From: a virus
DNA: 33,596 nucleotides
IMG/VR virus record: IMGVR_UViG_3300031857_000748
Coordinates: 1 to 33,596 of that record
Direction: 5' to 3' (one strand)
Part shown: positions 15,015 through 33,532 of the stretch, one piece after another
How positions within the stretch are numbered: position 1 is the stretch's first letter
How the letters are laid out: the number at the start of each line of letters is the position of its first letter
The notes under the pieces: generated by a model
What the model was told of the DNA's origin: nothing
Seen by the model: the letters and a program-made list of their open reading frames with translations, nothing else
Database searches by the model: none
Translations under genes and position numbers: made by a program

Positions 15015-15334
15015 CATGCGATTACAACAAGCACGGTATCTGCACTCACCCAGATAAAATTGGGGATAGGAACATCACAGATGATGACTGCGATATCTGT
15101 AAGCTAGTCGATCTGCATAAAAAAACTTCTTGCAGACACAAAGGATCTGCAAGAAGTTGTTGTGTAGATTTGCATATATGTCGTAAATTAAAAAAGGATT
15201 GTGTTGAGTCCTTAATCAAATTTACGCAATACAAATCTGAAACTGATCACCCAGAACTATTTCAAGAACGAATAGTTTGTTGTGAGACATGCGAGTATAA
15301 CACTATATTTCAACTTCCTTCTCAGGAATCCTAA
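15011..15334 (+). CDS. Cys-rich small protein at the end of the tail cluster
   Basis: 107 residues from ATG 15011, which overlaps the previous stop (ATGA). Twelve cysteines occur: residues 3, 11, 27, 30, 41, 50, 51, 57, 64, 90, 91 and 94, several in CxxC or CC pairs (CDIC, CC, CCETC) with nearby histidines. This suggests zinc binding or disulfides. The preceding tail protein also has CxC/CxxC clusters at both ends, so the two may interact. I recognise no family. The last 32 bases overlap the 3' end of the convergent helicase gene, and the helicase terminator hairpin lies within its coding sequence at about codons 38-50. Confidence 0.6.
   Translation: MTCDYNKHGICTHPDKIGDRNITDDDCDICKLVDLHKKTSCRHKGSARSCCVDLHICRKLKKDCVESLIKFTQYKSETDHPELFQERIVCCETCEYNTIFQLPSQES
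15118..15158 (-). terminator. Intrinsic terminator for the leftward helicase transcript
   Basis: AACTTCTTGCAGA (15124-15136) and TCTGCAAGAAGTT (15146-15158) form a perfect 13-bp stem with a 9-nt loop. On the minus strand it runs straight into seven consecutive T bases (complement of 15119-15125). It lies about 145 bp beyond the helicase stop codon, inside the opposing Cys-rich gene. Confidence 0.85.
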
Positions 15335-17759
15335 CGTATACTAATTTATGAATAGCTCTTGTAATAGCTACAAACTTCAGATTCCATTCCTGCTTCTTAG
15401 CCTCAGCTGTCTTAGCTAGGACATGCGGTACGTTCTTAGGATTAAAGAAGTACACATTATCAGCTTCCAATCCTTTAGCTCGATGAATGCTGCTCAGTCG
15501 AATTGACTTCACATCACTATCATTGAAGATTTGCTGAATAAAACTCACAACTTCAGTGCTTGTCTTACAGTTGGTTGCAACAGTGGCGATACAGTCAGCC
15601 TGATCACCGATAGCAATCTGCCGACTCTCAGTGTCGTACTTCTTCGTCTGCAGCAACTTAATCTGCTGGTCTCTCCAATCTTCCAGCAGCTGACACAGCG
15701 TCACAGAATCAACTTCCTGCTTGTCTGTCAGTTTGTTAATGAGCTTAACCAACCCTGCTCCGATGCTGCGTCCTACCACTTGGCAAGGCTTCCCAGCTTT
15801 GACCAACTTCCATGCCAGTGACATGAGTGGAGCATTCACTCTACTCACCAACATGTCCCCTTGCTGCAGGTCCATATCGGCTTCATCCAGATAGACAATC
15901 TCCCCTTCTGGATTTGTGCTGCCAGCATTGATTGCGTCACCTACAATCTTCTGAGCTTCAGCCACAATAGCCTTACCGCAACGGTATGTGTAGCTGAGAG
16001 GCAGCACTTCCACTTCATCCATTGCTTCAGCAATCTTACTGAAGCTGTCTGTCTGTGCTCCTGCAAAAGCAAAGATAGCCTGATTCGGATCACCAACAAA
16101 TACGAATGAAGTGCAATCCTGATTTGCAATGAGTTGAAGCTTACCAGCTGATAGGTCTTGGCAGTTATGCACCAACACCCCATTAGCGTAGAAGTTATGA
16201 CAATCTTCTACAGTTATGTCGTACACATAGTTCTCGCTGATGTACGTACTATCAACCGATATAACTGTAGCAGGCATAGGACAATTCTTACCGTCAGGAC
16301 ATATATCCTGCAATACTCCAGCAAAGTCTCGTGCAATATCTCGATTTTTAAACCGCAATACTTTCCATCCTTGCGACTCCAAGAATTGATCCTTTTTGTC
16401 ATCTATCTCTTTTGCCCCAGCATGAGACGCCCCGTCTATCTCAACTGCGATTCTATACTTAGGGTTAGCTAAATCAATTTTGTAGTGAGTAGGTTTATTA
16501 CCTCTACCATGATTCGGAGCGTCACCAGTTTTGATGACATACTCCATGTACCATCCATCACCTAAAGCATCAAACAGCAACTTCTGCGGTTCCGTTGGAC
16601 CTCTACCATTACCGCCCTTAATTGCGTTAAAGGCTTCTCGGTCTCCACCAACATTACCGATACCTTTCGTATTACCTTGATGTATCTGCGAAAGTTTATC
16701 TCTACCTGCAGCAGAAATCTTTCCTTTCTGTGTTGTTTCCGCCGCAGTCTCTACGATAACGGTTTCGCCTACCTTCAAATCTCCCGCATAAACCCATCCG
16801 TTATTGACGGTCCAGATTTTATGATCGACAGTACACACAACAAAATTATAAGCGTAATTACCATCAGTTCTGTGGTTGTGCTGCACCTTAACCTTAACTA
16901 GAGGTTTCCGATTAGGAATCTTCTGAGTAGCAGTAACTTTACAGTTCTTTGCTCTTCCCGTCGTGACATCGAAGCTTCTAACCACATCTCCAATCTTGAT
17001 GTCTTGAATGGATTTAGACCCTCCAGCCCCTAACATAACAGGAGTCCACCCCGGAAGACACTCATCTACTACAATACAGTCTGCCTTAATCTTCCAACCA
17101 TATCGAGCAGGCAAGTAAATCATATCGTCGAAATCAATCTCCATACCCTTCGCAGGTTTGGCTTTACCAAATGCCGAAGTCCTTCGTTCTTCTCGAACAG
17201 GTAGTGTGCTTCCTTCTTCCAGCACATACTTAACAGGCAGCTCACACGCAGAAGCTGATGAGCTGAATGTATACTCATTATCGATAGCCAATCCTGCCAG
17301 TGATGATTCCGTAATGTCATCCTCGGTCAGTACGGCATCTTTACAATACTTCACCAGTTCTCTCACATCATCAAGAATCGCTCTCTGAGCTTTCGACAAC
17401 TCTTTGACACTCTTCACCTGACAAAACTGCTGATACAAATTTGCTGTCTTCCATGTGTCGGGTCTGCCGATGCGAATTCCATTCTCTCTCATGATGCGGC
17501 AACCCAGAGAATGAATCGTTGTCGCTGTTCCGAATGTCAGACGTTCTTTCAGTTCTGTTGCGATTGCATTCGAGAACGCACACACAACAACTTCGTCTTC
17601 AGAAGTCAACTCAGCCTTCAACCAATTCCAGATAGCCAGCTGCTCTTCTGATGGTTTGTACTTCAGTTGTTTCTTTCCTGCTACCATTGACAGTCCGTCA
17701 ACGATGGTGGTGGTCTTTCCTGATCCAGCTGTAGCATTTACAATCAACGCACGTTTCAT
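15303..17759 (-). CDS. UvrD/Rep-like SF1 helicase interrupted by an intein
   Basis: 818-residue precursor; removing the intein (234-532) leaves a 519-residue ATP-dependent DNA helicase. Motif I is ATAGSGKTT (residues 10-18), Ia VVVCAFSNAIATEL (57-70), Ib TIHSLGCRIMR (81-91) and motif II VVDE-CQD, split by the intein between Glu233 and Cys533. Motif III is FVGDPNQAIFAFAGA (554-568), IV LSYTYRCGKAI (588-598), V SSIHRAKGLEADNV (756-769) and VI VAITRAIHKLVYV (797-809). A Q-motif-like KPSEEQLAIWNW follows rather than precedes motif I. It is the only leftward gene between tail and replication modules, with its own start site (GAAGGAAAG before ATG) and terminator. Likely role: recombination or replication unwinding. 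Confidence 0.9.
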   Translation of the reverse strand: MKRALIVNATAGSGKTTTIVDGLSMVAGKKQLKYKPSEEQLAIWNWLKAELTSEDEVVVCAFSNAIATELKERLTFGTATTIHSLGCRIMRENGIRIGRPDTWKTANLYQQFCQVKSVKELSKAQRAILDDVRELVKYCKDAVLTEDDITESSLAGLAIDNEYTFSSSASACELPVKYVLEEGSTLPVREERRTSAFGKAKPAKGMEIDFDDMIYLPARYGWKIKADCIVVDECLPGWTPVMLGAGGSKSIQDIKIGDVVRSFDVTTGRAKNCKVTATQKIPNRKPLVKVKVQHNHRTDGNYAYNFVVCTVDHKIWTVNNGWVYAGDLKVGETVIVETAAETTQKGKISAAGRDKLSQIHQGNTKGIGNVGGDREAFNAIKGGNGRGPTEPQKLLFDALGDGWYMEYVIKTGDAPNHGRGNKPTHYKIDLANPKYRIAVEIDGASHAGAKEIDDKKDQFLESQGWKVLRFKNRDIARDFAGVLQDICPDGKNCPMPATVISVDSTYISENYVYDITVEDCHNFYANGVLVHNCQDLSAGKLQLIANQDCTSFVFVGDPNQAIFAFAGAQTDSFSKIAEAMDEVEVLPLSYTYRCGKAIVAEAQKIVGDAINAGSTNPEGEIVYLDEADMDLQQGDMLVSRVNAPLMSLAWKLVKAGKPCQVVGRSIGAGLVKLINKLTDKQEVDSVTLCQLLEDWRDQQIKLLQTKKYDTESRQIAIGDQADCIATVATNCKTSTEVVSFIQQIFNDSDVKSIRLSSIHRAKGLEADNVYFFNPKNVPHVLAKTAEAKKQEWNLKFVAITRAIHKLVYVRIPEKEVEI
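16164..17060 (-). mobile_element. Intein with Vsr/EDxHD-like homing endonuclease domain
   Basis: 299 residues in frame at helicase motif II. Splice blocks are clear: Cys1 in CLPGWTPVML, block B VVCTVDHKIW (T-x-x-H), block F YVYDITVEDCHNFYANG, and terminal VLVHN followed by Cys as +1 residue. The insert carries no LAGLIDADG motifs. It has GPTEPQKLLFDAL followed by YRIAVEIDGASHAG, DDKKDQFLESQGWKVLRF, the Glu...Asp-Gly...His...Asp pattern of Vsr-like/DUF559 (EDxHD) nucleases. The endonuclease-like residues are Glu390, Asp442, His446 and Asp453 or 454 by inference. All splicing residues are present, so both splicing and homing look potentially active. Confidence 0.88.
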
Positions 17760-17814
17760 GATTCTTTCCTTCAGTGAATAGATGAATGCAGCTCATTGCT
17801 GCGTCACGCTTTCA

Positions 17815-17840
17815 ATTATACACATTCACTTCTTCAGTGA
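17815..17840 (-). promoter_or_regulatory. Candidate helicase promoter with adjacent inverted repeat
   Basis: On the minus strand a perfect TATAAT lies at 17815-17820, about 55 bp before the helicase ATG. No good -35 is present. The inverted repeat TCACT/AGTGA (17826-17830 and 17836-17840) overlaps the -35 zone and may bind a regulator. Confidence 0.4.
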
Positions 17841-17879
17841 TAGTGTGAAACAATCAGAAAAAATATTTTAAAATAATCA

Positions 17880-17907
17880 TTGACTCTGCTGGACAGTTTG
17901 CTAAACT
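17880..17907 (+). promoter_or_regulatory. Rightward promoter of the replication region
   Basis: TTGACT (17880-17885), 16-bp spacer, TAAACT (17902-17907) with TG one base upstream (extended -10). The predicted start, about 17914, falls four bases before the structured RNA candidate. An AT-rich stretch (17855-17880) precedes it. Confidence 0.55.
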
Positions 17908-17917
17908 CCACCTGTCC
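17891..17917. promoter_or_regulatory. Operator-like palindrome over the -10 element
   Basis: GGACAG (17891-17896) and CTGTCC (17912-17917) are inverted. Between them AGTTT and AAACT (17895-17899, 17903-17907) form a second, tighter inverted repeat over the -10. This nested dyad spanning -10 and the start site is a plausible repressor site. Confidence 0.4.
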
Positions 17918-18112
17918 GCTGGCAAATGTGTTGCGTCAAGGAAAGAAAGTGCTCCTAGTTAATTCTGTCTACGCTTGTCGAAGAGATTTGACAGAACAAA
18001 TACAGGGTGTTGTTTTTGGTCATTTTCGTCAACACTAACTGATATTTCTGAACTGTTGCACATAATACCTCCAAAATCACTGCAACAGTTCTGACGCAAC
18101 ATATTTGCCAGC
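17918..18112 (+). ncRNA. Candidate structured RNA (~195 nt), new family or 5' leader
   Basis: The ends pair over 21 positions: 17918-17938 with 18092-18112, beginning GCTGGCAAAT and ending ATTTGCCAGC. The only non-Watson-Crick position is G17928 with T18102, a G-U pair in + strand RNA. Inside lie TTCTGTC/GACAGAA (17963-17969, 17990-17996), GTGTTG/CAACAC (18007-18012, 18030-18035) and GAACTGTTGCA/TGCAACAGTTC (18050-18060, 18081-18091), the last stacked directly on the closing stem. The result is a multibranch junction. A promoter ends just upstream, and the ParB-like gene begins 36 nt downstream with AGGTG before its ATG. No T-run follows, so it may be an mRNA leader (riboswitch-like) or a processed RNA. 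A DNA role as a replication origin is the main alternative. Confidence 0.62.
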
Positions 18113-18147
18113 TGCTATTCAAATCAGTCCCAAACAAAAGGTGCCCC

Positions 18148-19464
18148 ATGAAACTTATCACAGCTCTAAACAAGAACAAAGTTGCCGACAGCAACATCAA
18201 GTCCGTCACATGTGAGATTGACTCTGAAGCTGCTCTGGAGATCCTCAGCACATTCAACACGAACAACCGGCCTGTTAGCAAATCAAAAGTTAATCTCTAC
18301 GCAAATGAAATGCTGCGTAACAAGTTTGCTCTGAACGGCGAGCCTCTCATCTTTGGTGAAGATGAAGAAGGCAACGAATGTCTCATCAGTGGTCAGCATC
18401 GTCTGCTCGCTCTGGCTCGTGCTCAGGCACTGTACAATACTGATGCCGATAAGTACCCTGATGCCATCAGTCCTCTAACTCTGCACACCGTTGTAATCTA
18501 TGGTGTTGCTTCTGACACAGCTGACACTGTGGACCAGCTCAATCCTCGTTCTCATGGTGACGTACTGTTTCGTGATGATTGGATTAACGAACAGATTGCA
18601 CCAGAATGGAAGACCAACGGTTCAAAGCGAGCTATGTGGTGTAAAGCTCTCGGTGGTGCTGCTCGTCTGGTATGGTTGCGTGCTGGTGGTGCTACGGTGA
18701 GTAGTGCTCCAAAGTTCCTGACCAGTGAGATGCTCGACTTCATCAAGAACAGTCACCCCGATCTGTGCAAATTCGTCAGTGAAGTGCTGACAGCTGCTGA
18801 TGGTAAAGAGAACACTGGTCTGCGAATGTCTCTCCCTTACATCGCAGCTCTGTCTTACATCGCCTGTCTCGAATTCGATGAGAATGATGAGCAGGTAGTC
18901 AATGAAGACAAACATGAAAAGATCAGTCTGTTCATTTCTCAGGTAGCGAGCGGTACAGGTTTTGCAGCAGGCAGCCCTGCCCATGCTATTACGCAGTATT
19001 GGAACAAGCTGACAGCTGAAGCAGGCAGTAAGGATCGTGACCTTGAATGGGTAGCTCCATTCGTTAAGTGCCTCACAGCTCTGGTCACAGGAGCTTCCTG
19101 CAAGCCTTCAGACCTGAAGCTGACAAAGAAGGAAGCTGATAACTACCGCAATGTTCCATGCCTCATGCCGGGATGGGATACAGCGATGTTTGAGTACGCT
19201 GCCTCAGTGTCGGCTATGTCGGCTGAAGAGAAAGTGAAAGAAGCTGAACGGAAGGAAGCTGAGAAAGCAGCAAAAGCTGAAGCCCGAGAAGCTGCTAAGG
19301 TAGCTAAGGCTGAAGCAGCAGAAAAAGCTAAGGCTGAAAAGGCCGAAGCTAAAGCAGCAGAGAAGGAAGCTGACAAACCTACTCCACCTGTAAAAGCCCC
19401 AACAGTTGTCGGTAAGTTTGTAAAGCGTAAGCCAGCTCCTGCTGCATCTACAAAAGCGTCATAA
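18148..19464 (+). CDS. ParB-like nuclease-fold protein with Ala/Lys/Glu-rich tail
   Basis: 438 residues. The N-terminal ~100 residues fit the ParB/Srx fold: RPVSKSKVNLYANEMLRNKF, then GEPLIFGEDEEGNECLISGQHRLLALARA, with the ParB-type G-Q-H-R signature at residues 82-85. These domains bind or cleave DNA or bind CTP; which applies here is unknown. Residues ~100-345 are helical and unrecognised. Residues ~350-425 are a low-complexity Ala/Lys/Glu coiled coil (KEAERKEAEKAAKAEAREAA), followed by a Pro/Lys-rich end. It is the first gene of the rightward replication operon, 36 bp after the structured RNA element, which may control its translation. A regulator or DNA-modification role is possible. Confidence 0.65.
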   Translation: MKLITALNKNKVADSNIKSVTCEIDSEAALEILSTFNTNNRPVSKSKVNLYANEMLRNKFALNGEPLIFGEDEEGNECLISGQHRLLALARAQALYNTDADKYPDAISPLTLHTVVIYGVASDTADTVDQLNPRSHGDVLFRDDWINEQIAPEWKTNGSKRAMWCKALGGAARLVWLRAGGATVSSAPKFLTSEMLDFIKNSHPDLCKFVSEVLTAADGKENTGLRMSLPYIAALSYIACLEFDENDEQVVNEDKHEKISLFISQVASGTGFAAGSPAHAITQYWNKLTAEAGSKDRDLEWVAPFVKCLTALVTGASCKPSDLKLTKKEADNYRNVPCLMPGWDTAMFEYAASVSAMSAEEKVKEAERKEAEKAAKAEAREAAKVAKAEAAEKAKAEKAEAKAAEKEADKPTPPVKAPTVVGKFVKRKPAPAASTKAS

Positions 19465-30455: not shown

Positions 30456-30984
30456 CTCTATTGATGCCCACCAGCTGAATAAAACTCATAGCCTGAGATG
30501 GATAGCTCATTCACCCTCACAATCAACAGCTTGATACGCTGGCTGGAAAAGGGTGAATTTCAACTAGAGCATATTACCCATTTTTACTGTCATTTTGGCG
30601 TAGTCACTTTGATGACAGCTATGGTGTAATCCGATTGACTACGCCATTACGGCAGTGTCATCAGATTGACGACACACATGCCAGAATGACATTGTCAACA
30701 TGATGACATAGGGGATTCCCCACATCACCATCTGTCAAGATGTTCAGGTATTGGCTGGCCGATGTTCTGCAAACTCATTCGGCTGCCCGTCAATCCCCTT
30801 TAATACTCTTCTCTCAGTAAACCCTTCCCACGTCGATTCTGACAGCGTCAAAACTTCCGGACGATCAATACCATTCCCAGAATTTGACGCTGTCCTGATC
30901 CATCCTATGCGATTTTAAGGCATATGACATTCTGTTCAGTATTTCAAACTAAACGGTTTAGTTTACTTCTTACCACCATTCCCT

Positions 30985-31078: not shown

Positions 31079-31122
31079 TGAATTGTCGTTCCGTTATTCG
31101 CCGTGCCGTCAGACATGAGCAC

Positions 31123-31190
31123 CAATGTTTTAAGGCTATCCCCGATAAACAGGGATAGCCTTAAAACGTTGATGACACCATCCTGTCATC
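31123..31190. repeat. Long perfect hairpin plus adjacent short hairpin
   Basis: GTTTTAAGGCTATCCC (31127-31142) and GGGATAGCCTTAAAAC (31152-31167) are perfect inverted repeats around a 9-nt loop, extendable to 20 positions with one U-G pair (31123-31171). GATGACA/TGTCATC (31171-31177, 31184-31190) follows. It lies about 40-60 bp beyond the end of the leftward operon. No T-tract exists in either direction, so it may cap the mRNA 3' end rather than terminate it. Confidence 0.65.
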
Positions 31191-31344: not shown

Positions 31345-31477
31345 TGTTTTCGTCCTCATCTGGATCGGGCATTGTGAACGCCTGAATTGTTGCTTCACCG
31401 ATTCGATAACTCAGGATAGCGTTTAATTCGTCATATGGGTGTACGTGGACGTACACAGGACAATGAAGCTTTTTCAT
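31328..31477 (-). CDS. Small acidic-tailed protein, 49 residues
   Basis: The start codon at 31477-31475 overlaps the stop of the 484-residue gene (TGATG on the minus strand), a typical coupling signal. The peptide begins MKKLHCPVYVHVHPYDELNA and ends in an acidic PDPDEDENNDNRY. The first half looks like strand-turn-helix, and the His-x-His and Cys could bind metal. No family recognised. Supported mainly by the exact coupling and sensible composition. Confidence 0.48.
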   Translation of the reverse strand: MKKLHCPVYVHVHPYDELNAILSYRIGEATIQAFTMPDPDEDENNDNRY

Positions 31478-32931
31478 CAGTAGAAACCCCCTACACTTGC
31501 GAGCTGAGAAGAGATAGAATTATATGCCGTATCGATAGCTTTTAGGAACAACGTATTTGCTTCCCAATTGCGAGCTTTCCATTTCCTCAGAATTGTCCGT
31601 GCGTCCATGCGAATGGACTCCCAACTATTCGGTAGTGTAATGCCCAAATATTGAATCCCAAATTGCCGTGTCCCCGCGAGGCAATTCCCTGCGTTCTGAC
31701 TGTCAATCATAGTGATGTACTCGATCCTTAAAAGCTTCCTCGCATACGTTGCGATTTCTTTCCGTTTCTGTTCAGCTGTCAGCACAGTGTTTCTGATATA
31801 ACGTATTCGTGACTGTACCCGCTCAATTACTGCTGCATTTTCCATCAGCTCGTCATCATGATACCAGTCAATCGAAGACAGCTGCTCATCGATTCGACGA
31901 TCCCCACATTTCCCCAAATACCACGCATGGCTTTTCCCCTCCCGTTCAGAATAGCAATCAATTCGATAAACAGGAATCATTGTCCCCACAAACTCGACAG
32001 CTCCAATTCTCTCAGGTTTGGATAACGGAACGGAGGAAACATACGGTTTAACGTTCAGTGCTGTCAGCTCAGTAAGCTTCGTCAATGCAGGCGACGATCC
32101 TTCGATGTGCCGCAGCTGCACGTTCATCTGAAACACCGTAAGACGATTGTCTCCGCTGCCAACAATAAGCTTCATTCGATTGGCAAACTTTGGATATGCA
32201 CAATCACGAACACGAAGCCACCGGGAATACTTCTCACGACTATCGATGTACGGCGAATTGCGATAGTTCACCACCTGCTGACCACGTAGCATAGATACAC
32301 GTTCTCCTGCATGTTTCGTTTTCTTGCGTCTACGTTTCAGCAGCTGTATCGCCTTACGTAGTCCGTCAACACAATCGCGATTCAATAAATTGCCATTGAT
32401 GCCACCGTCGTGATGGTAGTCTGATTTCGATCCCTTCCATTTATCATGTGGAATCGACGCTAACAGAATACATTGAGCGGAACGGATGGCCTGATCACGC
32501 GATTTTATACTCAGTAGACTACCGCGAACATCACAGAAAGCTTTCGTCCATTGATCCCACAACGGACGTAGTTCGGAATATTTCCTGCACAGCTCTTTAT
32601 AAGCTTCCAAAACATCCATTGGCACAATGTGGCGAGATGGAATGATGGTAGTCGGAAACTCACAAACCCAGACACATTCAGCGGACTGCGTTGTGCGTCC
32701 AAATCCTCCTCGCCATTGTTTGCGACGTGCATCTTTCTTCACATCCGGTTCTGTAGTCCGATGCATTGCACGTTGTCGTCTCAATACGTCCTCATAAAGC
32801 TCAACAATACCCTTCCATGATGTTCGCAATTCCAGCAATAGCCGTAATGCTGCAGCGAATCTATGAGATTCAGACAGCTGAACGTTTTCTGCACGACGAA
32901 CCAGATTTTCGAATAGATTCAAACTGATCAT
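31477..32931 (-). CDS. Unrecognised 484-residue protein, first gene of a leftward operon
   Basis: 484 residues with GGAG nine bases before the ATG. Basic overall, with a Lys/Arg run near residue 200-210 (LLKRRRKKTKHAGERV). The N-terminal ~140 residues are helical; the middle (DCAYPKFANRMKLIVGSGDNRL, FQMNVQLRHIEG) and later part (MIPVYRIDCYSEREGKSHAWYLG) contain strands. The C-terminal helical part holds ITMIDSQNAGNCLAGTRQFG (near residues 407-424), a motif-like block that I loosely associate with uncharacterised planctomycete proteins, from memory and unverified. No polymerase, integrase, ATPase or nuclease motif is visible. Flanking repeat-rich DNA suggests a replication, recombination or maintenance role, by context only. 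Confidence 0.6.
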   Translation of the reverse strand: MISLNLFENLVRRAENVQLSESHRFAAALRLLLELRTSWKGIVELYEDVLRRQRAMHRTTEPDVKKDARRKQWRGGFGRTTQSAECVWVCEFPTTIIPSRHIVPMDVLEAYKELCRKYSELRPLWDQWTKAFCDVRGSLLSIKSRDQAIRSAQCILLASIPHDKWKGSKSDYHHDGGINGNLLNRDCVDGLRKAIQLLKRRRKKTKHAGERVSMLRGQQVVNYRNSPYIDSREKYSRWLRVRDCAYPKFANRMKLIVGSGDNRLTVFQMNVQLRHIEGSSPALTKLTELTALNVKPYVSSVPLSKPERIGAVEFVGTMIPVYRIDCYSEREGKSHAWYLGKCGDRRIDEQLSSIDWYHDDELMENAAVIERVQSRIRYIRNTVLTAEQKRKEIATYARKLLRIEYITMIDSQNAGNCLAGTRQFGIQYLGITLPNSWESIRMDARTILRKWKARNWEANTLFLKAIDTAYNSISSQLASVGGFY

Positions 32932-32988: not shown

Positions 32989-33325
32989 TTCACATCCCCA
33001 CCGAACATGGAAGATATCGTCCGTTCAACACTCGCTGCAATACTCACTGATGCAATTTCACAAGAATGCTGAAAAGAAAATTCATGCCAATCAATGCACC
33101 AATGCGGGTATTACCTACCCTACAACCTGCCATCGCATAAGACAGCGTATAACGCAATCCGACGATCCCACGATAGAACAGTCACACCGATACATCGGAT
33201 AGCGTTATACGCAAAATCGATGTAATCCATCTGTTCACTGGTAGGGATTTCCCTATTCTCATGGTGTTTGGCATGGTCTGTGCATAGTGCCGACGATGCA
33301 CTATGTTTCGTCTATGTACGTTCCT

Positions 33326-33463
33326 GAATCATGATTCATACATCATCATTCAGGAATTGCTATTCACGATGGCACATACACGAATCATTATTCGTACATC
33401 CTGATACGTGATTGTCATTGCACGAATACTTATTCGCGTACCACAATGTACGAATTCCAATTC
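33326..33463. repeat. Phased array of GAAT-N4-ATTC palindromes
   Basis: Five perfect GAAT-NNNN-ATTC sites start at 33326, 33354, 33382, 33424 and 33452: spacings of 28, 28, 42 and 28 bp. Three have longer flanks (CGAAT/ATTCG, two of them ACGAAT/ATTCGT). The four-base centres all differ (CATG, TGCT, CATT, ACTT, TCCA), so the half-sites, not the centres, are conserved. This looks like a cooperative protein-binding array such as iterons or centromere-like sites. Confidence 0.75.
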
Positions 33464-33532
33464 GTGTATCCCACTGCCGGTATCATGATGAGCACATGCA
33501 ATCACATGTGAACACTGTCAAAAAAGTCAGGT

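Follow-up and report, generated by a model that had tools for sequence, protein, structure and literature searches.

What is the 195-nt segment bounded by an inverted repeat that stands between the promoter and the first gene of a replication operon in a 33.6-kb virus contig, and does it act as a new structured RNA, as part of the message that it heads, as a DNA site, or not at all for the phage? An earlier note had proposed a new structured RNA with a long closing stem and three internal hairpins. We analysed the complete contig (33,596 nucleotides, the window) together with related loci. The element occurs in one lineage, which besides the window comprises an identical contig and a third contig (L005) with a 98% identical copy. 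As L005 comes from another metagenome, the element is not an assembly artefact.

Promoter and gene context of the element

A sigma-70-type promoter of the operon led by the ParB-like gene, TTGACT-N16-TAAACT at 17880-17907 on the plus strand, was recovered by the promoter scanner where it had been proposed. Equivalents precede the ParB-like gene in 20 of 20 further related loci whose contigs extend far enough, some of these being near-identical contigs. The promoter is conserved down to about 45-50% identity of the ParB-like protein with its 16-nt spacing mostly kept, and the hexamer TAAACT is common to many of the 20 loci. A strict pattern search of the window found no second promoter of this type. 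Allowing the usual 7-nt distance after the -10 box places the putative transcript start at 17914, and the closing stem begins 4 nt further on, at 17918, in agreement with the start about four bases ahead of the segment that had been predicted. The predicted RNA would thus begin with four unpaired nucleotides, GUCC (17914-17917, plus strand), within a stretch (GTCCGCTGGCA) that recurs unchanged at the equivalent position of the related locus L006. An inverted repeat, GGACAG ... CTGTCC (17890-17917), flanks the -10 box, is kept in L005 and is a possible operator.

Downstream of the stem the leader continues for 35 nt (18113-18147, plus strand), with AAAAGG before the ATG; this remainder is similar in length to the whole leaders of relatives. 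The ParB-like protein, encoded at 18148-19464 on the plus strand, is the first product of the replication operon (phrog_5931, E 1.6e-26; phrog_1033, ParB-like, E 6e-5), so that the segment does stand ahead of a ParB-like gene, as described. The apparent operon continues with an HNH nuclease, a PD-(D/E)XK nuclease, an AAA ATPase, SSB, DNA polymerase A and a Toprim primase-like protein, and a divergent UvrD-type helicase gene (15303-17759, minus strand) lies on the other side of the element. Since the element directly adjoins the conserved promoter on its downstream side, it very probably forms the 5' leader of the replication-operon mRNA.

Several further features of this neighbourhood were observed. 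The UvrD-type helicase (15303-17759, minus strand) contains an intein, with a splicing domain at amino acids 242-532 together with a DUF559-type domain; its orthologues in L005 and L006 carry no such interruption. The ParB-like family (phrog_5931) has an invariant SGQHRL motif, gives no Pfam or NCBIfam match and is found beside replication genes across a whole group of uncultured phages. In the loci L024 and L026-L040 the ParB-like leaders end in ACCCC or ACCCCCT right before the ATG, and many of them are without a clear nearby Shine-Dalgarno sequence, which suggests that the start site lies in an unusual context. Several long imperfect hairpins (30586-30656, 31120-31174, 33145-33212 and 33376-33469) cluster at the window's right end around a minus-strand ORF at 31477-32931.

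Folding of the element and its interior

The two arms of the closing stem, 17918-17938 and 18092-18112 on the plus strand, form a 21-nt inverted repeat that is complementary at 20 of 21 positions (95%) and has a lone G-U in the rightward RNA, matching the long stem with one imperfect position that had been described. Both arms pair with an ensemble probability of about 1. The segment 17914-18112 on the plus strand folds with a minimum free energy of -74.3 kcal/mol (z -7.7), which none of 200 dinucleotide shuffles equalled, and an independent script gave z -7.2 with 0 of 300 shuffles as stable; the comparison with shuffled controls proposed in the earlier note thus came out in favour of a strong fold. 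The leftward strand of the same segment folds nearly as stably (z -6.9). With 21 pairs, and 20 in L005, the closing stem reaches the length of about two helical turns of an RNase III substrate or an IVS-like insert.

Within the stem, an 11-bp hairpin at 18050-18091 (18050-18060 paired with 18081-18091, plus strand; a 14-nt inverted repeat, one pair of which is broken in L005) stacks directly on the closing stem, as the reading of the sequence had suggested. Its 20-nt loop contains ACCUCC (18067-18072), an anti-Shine-Dalgarno sequence. The remaining interior (17939-18047, plus strand) holds 4-bp, 7-bp and 6/7-bp helices that are not above chance. Taken alone, the complete interior (17939-18091) has z -1.7, with 17 of 300 shuffles as good; after removal of the 11-bp hairpin (17939-18046) it has z 0.0, with 148 of 300 shuffles as good. 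The 7-, 6/7- and 11-bp helices exist as described, but the hairpins of 7 and 6 bp are no more than chance would give, and the above-chance parts of the fold are the closing stem and the 11-bp hairpin only. The 195-nt element is a real, lineage-specific inverted-repeat structure whose interior is unremarkable. This calls for caution, as a single inverted repeat and a single hairpin can together produce a very negative folding z-score, which need not indicate a conserved multi-hairpin RNA.

Open reading frames within the insert were considered as well. That the element serves as a cassette carrying a leftward gene of 34 codons behind a perfect Shine-Dalgarno sequence appears highly improbable. 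The frame (17959-18063, minus strand), of doubtful reality, has GGAGGT 3 nt before its ATG and is open in both the window and L005, which differ in it by one silent and one missense change, but it finds no homologue in the phage collection, a scan of 17300-18700 found no leftward promoter for it, it is absent from L006, and by our own estimate such an ORF arises by chance at a few per cent. On the rightward strand a frame of 29 codons starts at GTG 17949 in the window. L005 turns both downstream stops into sense codons and the frame would there extend to 88 codons, crossing the ParB-like start; owing to the loss of both stops a leader-peptide attenuator based on this ORF is unlikely.

Leader states and sequence changes among relatives

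We compared leader lengths, taken from the inferred start to the ATG, and found three states. In 18 homologous loci, some of them near-identical contigs, the leader measures 35-49 nt, shows little predicted structure and is without the insert. In L006/L007, whose ParB-like protein is 68% identical to that of the window, it measures 83 nt (5+39+39), the central 39 nt forming a predicted hairpin, GCUGGCAG...UUGUCAGC, that ends in TTTGTCAGC. In the lineage of the window (window, L001/L004 and L005) it measures 234 nt (4+195+35). The 11 nt at the putative start, GUCCGCUGGCA, are identical in L006 and the window. Comparing the paired ends of L006 with those of the window, all eight pairs are kept, six of them unchanged and two becoming G.U in the rightward RNA. 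We estimate that a chance 8-bp complement to the conserved 5' arm, with G-U allowed, would occur in the short L006 leader at about 1%. These three states show the element of the window to be inserted at +5 of a short leader, the ends of the insert being conserved and its contents not; in L006 this position is occupied by a smaller insert that shares these ends. A 12-nt match, CATTTTCGTCAA, links the L006 leader just past its hairpin to the interior of the window element and allows for two histories: the larger element may have shrunk by deletion to the L006 form, or the small hairpin may have expanded to the window form.

The kept end pairing also bears on a function at the level of DNA, i.e. 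an operator, a cruciform or a portion of a replication origin located between the divergent replication genes. The inverted repeats adjoin an AT-rich stretch (17857-17880) between the divergent helicase gene and the replication operon, and the palindrome GGACAG/CTGTCC lies around the -10 box. However, the arms are spaced by 153 nt in the window versus about 20 nt in L006, both end pairs that are altered in L006 break the DNA palindrome while keeping the RNA pairing, and a 1-kb profile is without a strong GC-skew switch at the element. We consider a DNA site improbable.

Constraint on the fold could be assessed from the window and L005 only, which are 98% identical here and differ by five substitutions, giving very low power. 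Three of these five fall on paired bases and all three break the pairing (18036, G.U to G.A; 18085, A-U to U.U; 18092, A-U to A.C), compared with zero compensatory changes between the two full-length variants. Three out of five is the chance expectation given that 122 of 199 positions are paired. As the hits on paired bases match chance and none is compensated, there is, at this low power, no sign of maintained internal helices. The closing stem of L005 retains 20 of its 21 pairs, the innermost (17938/18092) being lost.

The earlier note had argued from the single G-U in the long stem that the element functions as RNA in the rightward orientation. The two further G.U pairs in L006 support this argument, whereas the T to C change at 18092 in L005, which gives A.C in the rightward RNA and G.U in the leftward one, favours the opposite strand, and the leftward sequence folds almost equally well. 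With a tally of three G.U versus one A.C for the rightward RNA, the evidence from the stem is not decisive.

Database searches gave a similarly restricted distribution. Rfam returned nothing at the gathering threshold and just one non-credible match (E=2) at a relaxed threshold, in keeping with the view that the element belongs to no recognised riboswitch family; neither a tRNA nor an Rfam family was detected anywhere in the window. A covariance model built from the window and L005 was run on 27 sources and 12 records of related phages and matched nothing beyond the source lineage; its leftward matches were the same inverted repeat read from the opposite strand. The search for compensatory changes in related phages that the earlier note had suggested thus led back to the source lineage only and revealed none. 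Both arms searched as a gapped pattern in IMG/VR were likewise found in the source lineage only. When one arm was searched as an exact 17-18-nt pattern, from which divergent copies escape, in IMG/VR and in the genomes of 84,980 species (one per species), the matches were isolated, with no partner arm outside the lineage. DNA similarity searches of phage and plasmid collections yielded at most short, weak matches that lie upstream of the element, no ParB-like relatives were found in GTDB genomes, and a helicase-based search for further relatives yielded no contigs beyond those already found.

These results weigh on the originally proposed new structured RNA, here read as a noncoding RNA or riboregulator whose entire multi-hairpin fold is the functional unit, in trans or as a sensor. 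The strong fold, the absence of a match to any known family and the anti-Shine-Dalgarno sequence presented by the loop of the 11-bp hairpin speak for it. Against it, no part of the structure but the closing stem and a single hairpin exceeds chance, and the element is confined to one lineage, has three uncompensated breaks and zero compensatory changes, and neither contains an internal terminator nor affects the accessibility of the start. Loss of the structure with the protein context kept, which the earlier note had named as counter-evidence, is seen in part, since 18 homologous loci lack the element. What stands of the proposal is a very probable operon leader without credible Rfam match and with a small same-ended hairpin in L006; conservation of the complete fold as a functional RNA is not supported, and we regard a new RNA of this kind as rather unlikely. 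Like GOLLD, ROOL and other large phage or ornate RNAs the element is a phage-borne structured segment, but it is far smaller, as had been stated, matches no Rfam family, occurs in a single lineage and has an interior that is not conserved.

A putative 5'-terminal clamp on the operon mRNA

Our preferred reading, to which we assign a probability of roughly 45%, is that the element acts in cis as a 5'-terminal clamp, i.e. a predicted stem that would protect the mRNA and/or be processed by RNase III. Transcription would start at the conserved promoter of the ParB-like-led operon with the 195-nt insert beginning at about +5, and the ends of the insert would pair in the RNA to place a 21-bp stem at the 5' terminus. 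Such a stem close to the 5' end could hinder 5'-end-dependent decay of the RppH/RNase E or RNase J type, and as two helical turns of double-stranded RNA it would offer a plausible RNase III site. After cleavage there, about 35 nt of leader with a portion of a stem arm attached would remain, resembling the leaders of relatives, and the interior would be freed. The contents of the stem would largely be filler, its ends and position being what is kept.

We favour the clamp because a hairpin at +5 with fixed ends is conserved between lineages and because hairpin, RNase III and intervening-sequence precedents are available. Hairpins at the 5' end stabilise bacterial mRNA and impede RppH, that is, the conversion of the 5' end, and the B. 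subtilis RppH needs at least 2 unpaired 5' nucleotides and prefers at least 3 (PMC3997798). Phage T7 mRNAs are matured by RNase III processing and the lambda N mRNA is regulated by RNase III (PMC8708148). In 23S rRNA, inserts bounded by a stem take the place of earlier small hairpin loops, and RNase III removes them by cutting inside the stem (PMC4990558); the window element looks similar in its relation to the L006 hairpin.

The element resembles each of these systems in part. Like the stabilising stem-loops of ompA, papA and the B. subtilis aprE leader it would lie within a few nucleotides of the putative 5' end and upstream of an accessible start site, yet its stem is much longer (21 bp), closes a 153-nt interior and leaves 4 unpaired 5' nucleotides. 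With RNase III-processed phage messages, such as the lambda N leader and T7 sites such as R1.1, it shares a long predicted stem ahead of a gene, whereas its sequence is unrelated and the stem closes a large multibranch interior and not a simple hairpin. It is comparable to the intervening sequences (IVS) of 23S rRNA as an insert with a 20-30-bp bounding stem and little conserved contents where relatives have a small hairpin; in contrast to these it is located in the mRNA leader of a phage operon and measures 195 nt.

Several observations argue against the clamp. The four unpaired 5' nucleotides may suffice for attack on the 5' end, the distinct sequences known number three, L005 has lost the innermost pair of the closing stem, the strand evidence in the stem amounts to just 3 G.U versus 1 A.C, and most relatives do without any hairpin. 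An extended form of this reading, in which excision of the leader by RNase III gives the message a new 5' end and also sets free an RNA of about 150 nt showing the anti-Shine-Dalgarno loop, seems very improbable. To our knowledge, programmed leader excision of the IVS-like, stem-clamped type has no example in phages.

Other modes of leader action were also considered. The mean unpaired probability predicted for the start region is 0.67 both with and without the element; as these values are equal, the element does not act by hiding the start, and sequestration of the start site by a riboswitch or thermometer is unlikely. Attenuation is also unlikely, the scanner having found no intrinsic terminator within the element.

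The main rival to the clamp is a neutral or selfish insertion with terminal inverted repeats, a MITE-like or decayed mobile element that does nothing for the phage and of which L006 would hold a deletion remnant. The clean insert relative to 18 homologous leaders, the 21-nt terminal inverted repeat, the unconserved contents folding at chance and the uncompensated substitutions in L005 are what such an origin would leave. The element is indeed short and intergenic like MITEs and other terminal-inverted-repeat elements, with inverted repeats matching at 20 of 21 positions, but differs from them in that neither an apparent target-site duplication nor other copies nor a partner transposase were found. 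The end sequence together with its partner arm occurs nowhere else in 84,980 species genomes, IMG/VR, phages and plasmids, and by inspection the flanks, GTCC and TGCTATTC, show no apparent target-site duplication. Moreover, the same +5 position and the kept end pairing in L006 are unexpected for a decaying remnant. We consider a neutral insertion possible though unlikely. In sum, the element is a lineage-specific add-on that more likely serves the mRNA as a cap or processing stem than represents a new, widespread class of RNA.

If the clamp reading is true, these phages would provide a clean natural experiment on how a phage tunes the first message of its replication operon. Under one promoter, about 20 phage contigs present three states, namely a bare 35-49-nt leader in most, a 39-nt hairpin at +5, and a 195-nt insert at the same place.
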